This document shows positions 58,894-62,160 of a stretch of DNA of 64,000 nt, one piece after another. Both the position numbers and the translations under genes were made by a program. How positions within the stretch are numbered: the first letter of the stretch is position 1; each line of letters begins with the position of its first letter. The notes beneath the pieces are model-generated. The model made no database searches. It saw only the letters and a program-made list of their open reading frames with translations, and was not told the DNA's origin. Origin of the DNA: Thermococcus radiotolerans (GTDB taxonomy: Archaea; Methanobacteriota_B; Thermococci; Thermococcales; Thermococcaceae); contig NZ_CP015106.1 of assembly GCF_002214565.1 (NCBI RefSeq), forward strand, positions 1,798,001-1,862,000, given 5' to 3'.

Positions 58894-61029
58894 ATGCAGG
58901 AAAAGGACCTCCACTATCTTATAACCAGAATAATCAATCCATATCTAAACTGGGTCATCGTAGAGTTGCGTTCTGGGAATCGTGTTGTCTATGGTCGTGA
59001 TGGATATACTGGCTTAAAGTGGACCGATCATACAATTGGGGATTTTCTTGCTAGTGATTTAGAAGAATGGAGAAATGAGCTATGGTACAAATACAGAGAT
59101 AACTTCTTTGAGCGTGGACATGAAATCATTGACTCTCTCCTGGACATAATAGTTAGAATTGAAGCCAAGCTCCCAGATAGTGAGACCAAAGAACGGGTGA
59201 TGAAGGATTTGTGGGAAATGGCAGAAAAGGTAGGGGACTACCTAGAGATTGGAGATTATGTTGATTCAAAAAGACCTGAAGTAGAATCAAAGGCAGCCAA
59301 AATTAAGCGAGAGGATGAGGAACTGAAAAAGAGGATGGTAAAAGAGGCTCATGAGCACAGAGATGAAAAAACCATTGTACTCAGCCAGGACGGGAATCAA
59401 ACCAGGGATAGTACCTATAAGCCTGCAGTGTCTAGGGATTCAAAACCATCAAATGGGGGACACAAGTTTTCGTGGAAGAACTTCGTAGCGTTCTCTTTGG
59501 CAGTATTGCTTCTTTTTGCTCTTTGGGATTTAGCCCACAACGATGGAGCCATTATTAGTAAAGTGCTTCCAACTGGTAACAACGAGAGAGTTCTAGAGCC
59601 CAATGGAGGCAGTGATGGTTCCTCTCAGACACTCTCTCCGAGCTTTTTCAATGGCAGTAACACTTCCAAAGACGGCAGCACTATTGATGAACACAAAGCA
59701 GAATCCTCCTCCCATGATGCGGATAATGATGGCCTGGATGACAACATGGAGATCTCTCAAACTGGTACTGATCCTCTTAATCCAGATACCGATGGGGACG
59801 GACTCTCCGATGGAGAAGAAGTTCTGGAATACAACACGAACCCTCTTGTTAACGATACGGACGATGATGGTTTGACTGATAAGGCCGAGGTGGTTACTTA
59901 TCACTCTGATCCACTTAATGCCGACTCCGATGGGGATTACCTGCCAGATGGATACGAAGTTAAAATTGGCACGGATCCAACTTCTGACTGGAGATACGGT
60001 TCAATTGATGAAGAAACTTTGAAAGCTGGCCTCAGTAAATTACTGCGTGAGAGAATTAAAGGGATCTCCGAGCAGTTTTGGGAATACAACTCTACATTGG
60101 ATCGGGCATGGGCAATTCTCCAGTGGATTGATGAGAATATCCAATACAACGATACCAAGGCAGAGTACGTGGATAAAAGCGTTGAGATGTGGGATTATCT
60201 GAGTAGTTATAACAAGGAGTATTATGCTAATCTGACAAGACTTCAGGCGGTGAATGATACTGTTTTCAGGTACAAAAGTGGAATTTGTGGAGACTATGCT
60301 CTGCTCACTGCCGCTTTTCTTCTTGAGGCTAATGTAAGTCCAATATACGTTTTAAGCATTGACTATGTTGATCAAGAGGTGGGACACGCCACTGTGGCAG
60401 TAAAACTCGAGAAGGAATACTTTGTACTGGATCAGCATCTGCCAATGATACCCCTTGGGAACTATTATTGGTTCTCTATCTGGGGAGGCCTCGGAGAAAT
60501 CTCCAATGTAACTTTCTATAGAGTGGCCCTGAATGAAAATGGAGAAGTAGACATCAGAAACTGGACGTGGAGAAGTGGAAGCCTCAAAAAACGAGCCTAT
60601 AAGTTCACTTCGCAGGATCTCGAAGTGGTCCTAAACCTGACAAAGGAGATGTTTACTGAGCTTTATCCTGGATATCAACAGGATCAGAGGCTTAAGCGTA
60701 ACGCGGAGGCAGATCTTGAGTCAATTAAACAACGGAACGAAAGTGCAAGAACTCTGTTACCAGTAGGGTTTCACAAAGGATGGACCCTTTGGTGGTCCGA
60801 TCCAGGATTTCAGCTTTACTACCACCCACTGCTTGCGGAAAAACTCGTAAGATATTACTGGCCGGGACCAGCTTTCTCGAACGAGGACTGGGTTGGTCCA
60901 ATCAGAGAATGTGACAGGTACTATCTACTGGTCGATAGCGATGAATACAATACAGTCCTGATCCAGGACTCTGAGGGGGACTCCTATGAAATCAACCGCA
61001 TGGTGATGGTACTTCAAATTGCAACGTAG
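58894..61029 (+). CDS. Membrane-anchored transglutaminase-like protein with calcium-binding repeats
   Basis: 711 residues. Cytosolic N-terminal part (about 1-195) is followed by one membrane helix (NFVAFSLAVLLLFALWDL). A Ser/Asn-rich stalk leads to thrombospondin type-3-like repeats (DADNDGLDDNME, DTDGDGLSDGEE, DTDDDGLTDKAE, DSDGDYLPDGYE) that bind Ca2+. The C-terminal transglutaminase-like fold has KSGICGDYALLTAAFLLE (Cys), EVGHATVAVKL (His) and YFVLDQHLP (Asp). Clearly more AT-rich than its neighbours, with codon use to match: probably acquired. Protease or cross-linking activity cannot be told apart. Confidence 0.8.
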   Translation: MQEKDLHYLITRIINPYLNWVIVELRSGNRVVYGRDGYTGLKWTDHTIGDFLASDLEEWRNELWYKYRDNFFERGHEIIDSLLDIIVRIEAKLPDSETKERVMKDLWEMAEKVGDYLEIGDYVDSKRPEVESKAAKIKREDEELKKRMVKEAHEHRDEKTIVLSQDGNQTRDSTYKPAVSRDSKPSNGGHKFSWKNFVAFSLAVLLLFALWDLAHNDGAIISKVLPTGNNERVLEPNGGSDGSSQTLSPSFFNGSNTSKDGSTIDEHKAESSSHDADNDGLDDNMEISQTGTDPLNPDTDGDGLSDGEEVLEYNTNPLVNDTDDDGLTDKAEVVTYHSDPLNADSDGDYLPDGYEVKIGTDPTSDWRYGSIDEETLKAGLSKLLRERIKGISEQFWEYNSTLDRAWAILQWIDENIQYNDTKAEYVDKSVEMWDYLSSYNKEYYANLTRLQAVNDTVFRYKSGICGDYALLTAAFLLEANVSPIYVLSIDYVDQEVGHATVAVKLEKEYFVLDQHLPMIPLGNYYWFSIWGGLGEISNVTFYRVALNENGEVDIRNWTWRSGSLKKRAYKFTSQDLEVVLNLTKEMFTELYPGYQQDQRLKRNAEADLESIKQRNESARTLLPVGFHKGWTLWWSDPGFQLYYHPLLAEKLVRYYWPGPAFSNEDWVGPIRECDRYYLLVDSDEYNTVLIQDSEGDSYEINRMVMVLQIAT

Positions 61030-61562: not shown

Positions 61563-61877
61563 TCAGCCGCCGCTCATGTGGTACAGCATCTCCCAGAGCC
61601 TGACGGTGTACTCAACCGTTGGAGGGTAGCTCTGAACTATTTCGGTGATCTCCATGTTCTTGTGGAAGGTTGGGGCATCTATTGTTTTCATGTACTCTTC
61701 GAGGGCTTCTCTGTCCTTGGCCCGCCATATCGTGTAACTTCCGCCGACGAAATTGTACGAAGCGAGGAACTCAACATCGCCCGTGAGGGGCAGCCGTTTG
61801 AAGAAATCGGCAGCTTCCTTAGTCGCTTTGATGCTCTCTTCATCTGAATAGCGATGGGTGACGAGGAACATCGCCAT
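61563..61877 (-). CDS. Small alpha/beta-barrel-type protein (DUF3303-like)
   Basis: 104 residues: MAMFLVTHRYSDEESIKATKEAADFFKRL, then VEFLASYNFVGGSYTIWRAKDREALEEYM (key parts FLVTHRYSDEES and SYTIWRAKDREALE). The beta-alpha-beta pattern resembles dimeric alpha/beta barrel (DUF3303/EthD-like) proteins of unknown role. ATG 61877 after GGGAGGTG at 61890-61883. It has an unusually long, GC-rich leader able to form a pseudoknot, so expression may be RNA-controlled. Confidence 0.6.
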   Translation of the reverse strand: MAMFLVTHRYSDEESIKATKEAADFFKRLPLTGDVEFLASYNFVGGSYTIWRAKDREALEEYMKTIDAPTFHKNMEITEIVQSYPPTVEYTVRLWEMLYHMSGG

Positions 61878-61925
61878 ACGAACACCTCCCATGTATCAAA
61901 TAACTTTCATATGTTCTTGCCAGAG

Positions 61926-61986
61926 GGAGCGCCGCTGGGTGAAAATGGTCGCTTGCTTCCGGGCGCTCCGCTTTAGATTCACCCAG
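61926..61986 (-). ncRNA. Pseudoknot-capable leader RNA upstream of the small protein
   Basis: On the minus strand CTGGGTGAA (61986-61978) pairs with TTCACCCAG (61943-61935), nine bases. GGAGCGCC (61969-61962) pairs with GGCGCTCC (61933-61926), eight bases. The partners interleave, giving a pseudoknot or two mutually exclusive hairpins. A TATA-like CTTTATATAC (62028-62019) predicts a start near 61995, just before the structure. The block is GC-rich in an AT-rich spacer, as for structured RNA in hyperthermophiles. Riboswitch-like leader or free small RNA are both open. Confidence 0.55.
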
Positions 61987-62017
61987 ACAGAACCTGCTGT
62001 GTAGGCATTGCCCTTAT

Positions 62018-62030
62018 TGTATATAAAGAT
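62018..62030 (-). promoter_or_regulatory. TATA box of the pseudoknot leader
   Basis: Minus strand ATCTTTATATACAA (62031-62018). Predicted start about 26 bases on, near 61995, nine bases before the first arm of the structure; leader to the ATG is about 115-120 bases, long for Thermococcus. Confidence 0.55.
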
Positions 62031-62104: not shown

Positions 62105-62122
62105 AATCAAAACTTTTTTATA
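62105..62122 (+). promoter_or_regulatory. Promoter of the Sec61-beta gene
   Basis: CAAAACTTTTTTATACC (about 62107-62123) is a BRE/TATA-like element 40 bases before the ATG at 62161, which follows AGGGGTGAG. A second TATA-like run (TATTTAAAAAGG, 62050-62061) lies further up. Confidence 0.55.
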
Positions 62123-62160
62123 CCTTAGCGCCCGTAGGCACTCCTTGAGGGGTGAGATGA

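Follow-up and report, generated by a model that had tools for sequence, protein, structure and literature searches.

The window, i.e., the whole stretch of DNA analysed, comprises 64,000 nucleotides of Thermococcus radiotolerans and contains on its minus strand a gene for a 104-aa protein (61563..61877, ATG at 61877) with a predicted ferredoxin-like fold. A Shine-Dalgarno sequence (SD), GGAGGUG, is located 12 nt 5' of the start codon (61883..61889, minus strand), and a TATA box, TTTATATA, was recognized by its sequence further upstream (62020..62027, minus strand). Applying the TATA-to-start spacing of ~23 bp that is given in the accessible part of PMC4247193, we predict that transcription starts near 62000, ~23 nt 3' of the box. 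The predicted leader, or 5' untranslated region (61878..62000, minus strand), would have a length of ~120 nt up to the ATG at 61877, a slight revision of the ~115 nt of the original prediction.

Two perfect stems were found within this leader. Stem a, of 9 bp, joins CTGGGTGAA (61986-61978) to TTCACCCAG (61943-61935), and stem b, of 8 bp, joins GGAGCGCC (61969-61962) to GGCGCTCC (61933-61926), all on the minus strand. Listed as minus-strand features, the 5' strand of stem a is CUGGGUGAA (61978..61986) and its 3' strand, a', is UUCACCCAG (61935..61943), whereas the 5' strand of stem b, GGAGCGCC (61962..61969), contains an SD-like GGAG, and its 3' strand, b', is GGCGCUCC (61926..61933), the end of which is also complementary to the SD. 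The strands follow each other in the interleaved order a-b-a'-b' from 61986 to 61926, with a loop of 8 nt between a and b, a loop of 18 nt between b and a', and a single base between a' and b'; the TATA box lies ~34 nt 5' of stem a and the SD 36 nt 3' of b'. A conserved structured RNA was matched at 61917..61999 (minus strand) by a covariance model with 49.5 bits, the window's own sequence being included in that model. The minus strand fits the gene, the TATA box, and the spacing of the element, and the strand assignment is based on the promoter, the SD, and the association with the gene.

We also considered whether the element leads the Sec61-beta gene on the plus strand and rejected this reading: that gene has a TATA-like sequence of its own near 62119-62126, and the element accompanies the minus-strand gene into other neighbourhoods. 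Also on the plus strand, at 58894-61029, the window encodes a protein of 711 aa that combines TSP3 repeats with a transglutaminase-like DUF553 domain.

The interleaved stems, which the original prediction had described without naming a strand, were confirmed on the minus strand. When the 105-nt region was shuffled with its dinucleotides preserved, an interleaved pair of perfect stems as long as these (at least 9 and at least 8 bp) arose in only 1 of 20,000 cases. Such a pair occurs at exactly one place in the real 64-kb window, and 40 shuffled 64-kb windows contained 4 pairs altogether, i.e., 0.1 per window. The folding energy of the leader was unremarkable in a plain fold (z = -0.22), ordinary folding being unable to represent a pseudoknot. 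The computed energies of the two stems were still negative at 80 to 85°C, at about -3 to -6 kcal/mol each.

Homologous genes were sought with the protein sequence in 94 Thermococcales genomes and with a profile in 115 genomes of the phylum. The 26 genes retrieved form one family and are present in 25 genomes; a weak match in genome G012 and two weak fragments were set aside from this count. The distribution of the gene is patchy, and it is absent from most of the 94 Thermococcales genomes. No homologue was present in the viral contigs and plasmids searched. A leader of the order a-b-a'-b' precedes all 26 genes. Its knot core spans 60 to 75 nt, and the SD follows b' at a distance of 29 to 39 nt in 26 of 26 cases. 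A matching TATA box is found in 25 of the 26 homologous leaders, at a distance of 31 to 39 nt 5' of stem a (in G097 the pattern gave no box). Between clades, the loops show little conservation, unusually for a small-molecule aptamer. The 104-aa protein gene carries a stop or frameshift in G108 (L046), G102 (L062), and G087 (L056), with the leader still present. The fragmentary assembly of G115 contains two diverged copies of leader and gene (L147 and L145) in different neighbourhoods.

Weak covariance-model matches were also inspected. Among the true leaders, that of G087 scored lowest with model R1 (25.4 bits) and was missed by model R2 at an E value of 0.005. The R1 matches in G090 and G028 (28.6 bits), which exceed the score of G087, were judged false; they have a possible stem a and no stem b, span the start of a transporter gene, and were not listed by R2. 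The R2 match in G075 (26.4 bits) was also judged false, there being no such leader at that place, and the inspection of 14 other, weaker model matches (about 23 bits or less) revealed no such leader. In 151 genomes of another phylum, R1 reached at most 21.5 bits at an E value of 0.001, and covariance-model scores did not exceed 20 bits in nine genomes of genus g12, which we take to be Pyrococcus.

The stems themselves change in sequence among relatives. In the clade of the window, stem a is CTGGGTGAA; other clades have AGAAGAGGAG or AGAAGGGGAG, a third group has GGAAGAGGAG, and the opposite strand is in every case the complement or near complement. Stem b varies inside and has kept an outer GGAGC or GGGGC in 23 of 26 leaders. 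In a hand alignment of the 26 leaders, in which nine pairs of stem a and eight of stem b were counted and which leans towards the structure, 401 of 442 stem cells are standard pairs, alongside 30 A-C and 11 other mismatches. For the 25 distinct cores, 385 of 425 cells are paired, as compared to 275.6 ± 23.0 under a tree-based null, in which the same substitutions were redistributed over the stem columns of the tree; changes on both sides were seen in 12 of 17 pairs, as compared to 4.0 under this null. Neither value was reached in any of 1,000 runs. Stem a alone accounts for 202 paired cells of 225 (null, 116.1; 0 of 1,000 runs as high). The support for stem b is weaker, because on its own it has 183 of 200 cells paired against 175.6 ± 3.8, a value attained by 9 of 1,000 null runs. 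Sliding of the partners lowers the pairing to 203 to 251 of 425 cells. An alignment made with MAFFT, which is blind to structure, gave 85.6% paired cells versus 77.0% after shuffling and a covariation score of 0.346 versus 0.208, with 0 of 500 shuffles as high in both cases. Under a strict per-pair test (APC-corrected G-test against the tree null), no base pair had an E value of <0.05; the variation is dominated by two clades. Conservation and compensating changes in relatives, on which the original prediction had staked itself beforehand, were both found.

Two limits apply to what the pairing data say. With 21 G-U pairs as against 30 A-C mismatches in the 26 leaders, wobble pairs are not in excess and do not identify the RNA strand. 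Furthermore, a' and b' are nearly contiguous, so that covariation supports each of the stems and not the coexistence of both. As only a few bases separate a' from b', simultaneous formation of the two stems may put strain on the a-b loop; a switch between stems that exclude each other would be just as natural.

The leader is not confined to the 104-aa protein gene. A covariance model that holds only stem a recovered the known leaders and two more, in G103:C4 (43.6 bits) and at G108:C1:263007-263094 (33.4 bits). Both have 9 of 9 pairs in stem a and 7 of the 8 counted pairs in stem b, and both precede a gene for a 49-aa membrane protein, which is intact in G103 (L103 3516-3664, minus strand; G103:C4:47517-47663) and decayed in G108. 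As read from its sequence, the 49-aa protein appears to have one membrane helix. Its relatives, about 30 to 54% identical, are found in many Thermococcaceae, and among the 20 scanned loci with this protein the leader is present at 2, those of G103 and G108. In G103, a presumed thiamine gene cluster, named from the sequence, runs towards the 49-aa protein gene. The occurrence of one RNA before two unrelated genes favours a regulatory element over a gene-specific structure.

Most copies of leader and gene are found in the neighbourhood of Sec61-beta and ribosomal protein S6e; the copies in G062, G061, G098, G115 (two), and G031, together with the two membrane-protein copies, are located elsewhere. 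In some species, exporter genes of the ArsP-like or MFS kind adjoin the 104-aa gene. The copies in G103, G099, and G108 are followed by an ArsR-type HTH gene and a split ArsP_1 permease and that in G102 by an MFS exporter, and CBS proteins are neighbours in G062, G115, and G031, as identified with Pfam on one example of each type. No single function is common to the neighbouring genes. The ArsP_1 and MFS neighbours are no more than a hint that the cue might be a toxic compound or ion.

The 104-aa protein of the window had no Pfam or NCBIfam match at cut-off and no match to PF14026 at an E value of 0.1, and a sequence search of the PDB retrieved no relative (best E value, 0.86). Weak profile matches were obtained among 21 members, namely, to the SCO4226-like family (PF14026) in 7 and to DUF3303 in 2, with best E values of 4e-4 and 1e-3, respectively, and this likeness of some members is too weak for an assignment. 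AlphaFold modelling with 21 sequences gave a mean pLDDT of 84 and a succession of strands and helices of E-H-E-E-H-E-H. Structure searches with this model returned only the common ferredoxin-like arrangement (best Foldseek E value, 2.7e-3; VIA Z score of at most 8.5); the match of the monomer model to 4oi6_A (Z of 7.8, rmsd of 3.1, 78 residues) was tied with many ferredoxin-like folds. In the model, the protein is like dimeric alpha/beta-barrel proteins, at middling scores that are common to many families. SCO4226 has, according to the accessible part of PMC4186839, a ferredoxin-like dimeric fold with a Ni-1 site formed by His76, Asp43, and Ser46. The SCO4226-like family is nickel-responsive, and for the 104-aa protein nickel is a lead only.

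In the Rfam covariance-model search that had been suggested with the original prediction, only tRNAs reached the gathering score; neither the leader of the window nor those at 17 related loci were matched, in line with the original prediction, which had recognized no known riboswitch in it. We found no description of the element in the literature covered on Thermococcales leaders and riboswitches, which mostly lay outside subscription journals. The H-type pseudoknot translational riboswitches (SAM-II, SAM-V, SAM/SAH, and preQ1) likewise have, as far as the available descriptions go, two interleaved stems in the 5' leader near the SD, with control proposed at translation. The present element differs from these classes in that a' and b' nearly abut and a long loop separates b from a', and in that it lacks an Rfam match; the classic H-type pseudoknot has a near-zero loop at the position of this long loop. 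The crcB fluoride riboswitch, present in Thermococcales according to the accessible text of PMC4247193, is also a structured leader in this order, was not called here by Rfam, and has different downstream genes. By description, the nearest published Thermococcales RNA is sRk28 of Pyrococcus abyssi, which the available portion of PMC3124441 presents as a 70-nt, putatively preQ1-like RNA with a possible pseudoknot and covariation. The same portion places it next to PAB1992 and in all genomes compared except that of T. sibiricus, a distribution that differs from that of the present leader, the comparison being one of descriptions and not of sequences.

How the leader might act on translation can be outlined from the pairing partners of b'. 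The transcript would start just 5' of stem a, after which the two interleaved stems would form. The GCUCC of b' has two potential partners: inside the knot the SD-like GGAGC of b, and 36 nt further downstream the real SD. In the pseudoknot, probably stabilized by a ligand, b' would be held by b and the SD would be free, whereas in its absence b' could mask the SD and translation would fall. When the window leader was folded without the knot, the probability that b' paired with the SD was 0.84 (37°C) or 0.29 (80°C). With the knot strands occupied, overall SD pairing at 37°C dropped to 0.48 from 0.84, and at 80°C it dropped to 0.29 from 0.51. A probability of b'-SD pairing of at least 0.25 at 37°C was obtained for 12 of the 26 leaders, and with the knot strands occupied at this temperature SD pairing falls in 16, is unchanged in 3, and rises in 7. 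Translational control via b' is thus possible in these models and is not conserved across members. Attenuation at a T tract is unlikely, since a run of five Ts after the knot is present in none of the 26 leaders.

Taken together, sequence comparison indicates that the leader is real, conserved, and structured, and its transcription is predicted. We consider, with moderate confidence, that it is probably a cis-acting structured leader RNA of the riboswitch type, representing a new family in Thermococcaceae that is absent from Rfam and did not appear in the papers searched. A more specific proposal, which we advance tentatively, is an archaea-specific riboswitch class: the pseudoknot would be an aptamer sensing a small molecule or ion, the SD mimic in b would compete with the real SD for b', and the small ferredoxin-fold protein and the membrane peptide would be under its control. 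Such a comparatively supported orphan leader, shared by two unrelated genes and tied in its position to the SD, opens RNA-based translational control in hyperthermophiles to direct testing, and a ligand, if found, would also provide an unnamed protein family with a function.

Several other explanations were weighed against a riboswitch-type leader. A protein, either the product of the gene itself or another one, might bind the pseudoknot and repress or activate translation without a small molecule; the fixed association of leader and gene (26/26) suits such feedback, and variable loops with a preserved helix shape, as observed here, are seen in some protein-binding leaders. We nevertheless regard this as rather unlikely, as the same leader before a different, 49-aa membrane protein is not expected of self-binding and the 104-aa protein looks acidic from its sequence and has no RNA-binding family match. 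Less probable still is a 5' structure that is constitutive and senses no ligand, serving to protect the mRNA, to fix a basal rate of translation, or to react to temperature. Stem energies that remain negative at 80 to 85°C would agree with it, as would the persistence of leaders before broken genes in G108 and G102, but a mere stabilizer has no obvious need for interleaved stems with conserved SD spacing, nor for the nearly constant GGAGC:GCUCC core.

A DNA-level operator, in which a transcription factor reads interleaved inverted repeats, would be compatible with A-C mismatches being as common as G-U pairs, which leaves RNA pairing unproven by wobbles. This reading appears very improbable given that the element lies 3' of the predicted start site, that the arms of each stem are interleaved and tens of bases apart, and that from lineage to lineage both arms are replaced by unrelated sequences that are again complementary. 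Just as improbable in our estimation is a free trans-acting small RNA, processed from the leader or ending within it, even if processing of a structured 5' end is conceivable, as the accessible part of PMC3124441 proposes for P. abyssi leaders. The element is always directly 5' of a gene at a fixed distance from the SD, and none of the 28 copies lacks a downstream gene or gene remnant. The original prediction had named a riboswitch-like element and a free small RNA side by side; from the sequence, the former is the best reading, and the latter is less likely owing to the position before the SD, which is fixed in 26 of 26 homologous loci.

Two further observations concern the promoter region. 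The promoter and leader of G035 (L007) are nearly identical to those of G032 (L054) and G025 (L048), and the protein of G035 is just 69% identical to that of the window, which may reflect recombination or a stronger constraint on the leader. In several relatives (L002, L005, L006, and L007), an inverted repeat, CATCAAGATTTTTGATG, directly precedes the TATA box; it may be an operator and is absent in the window.
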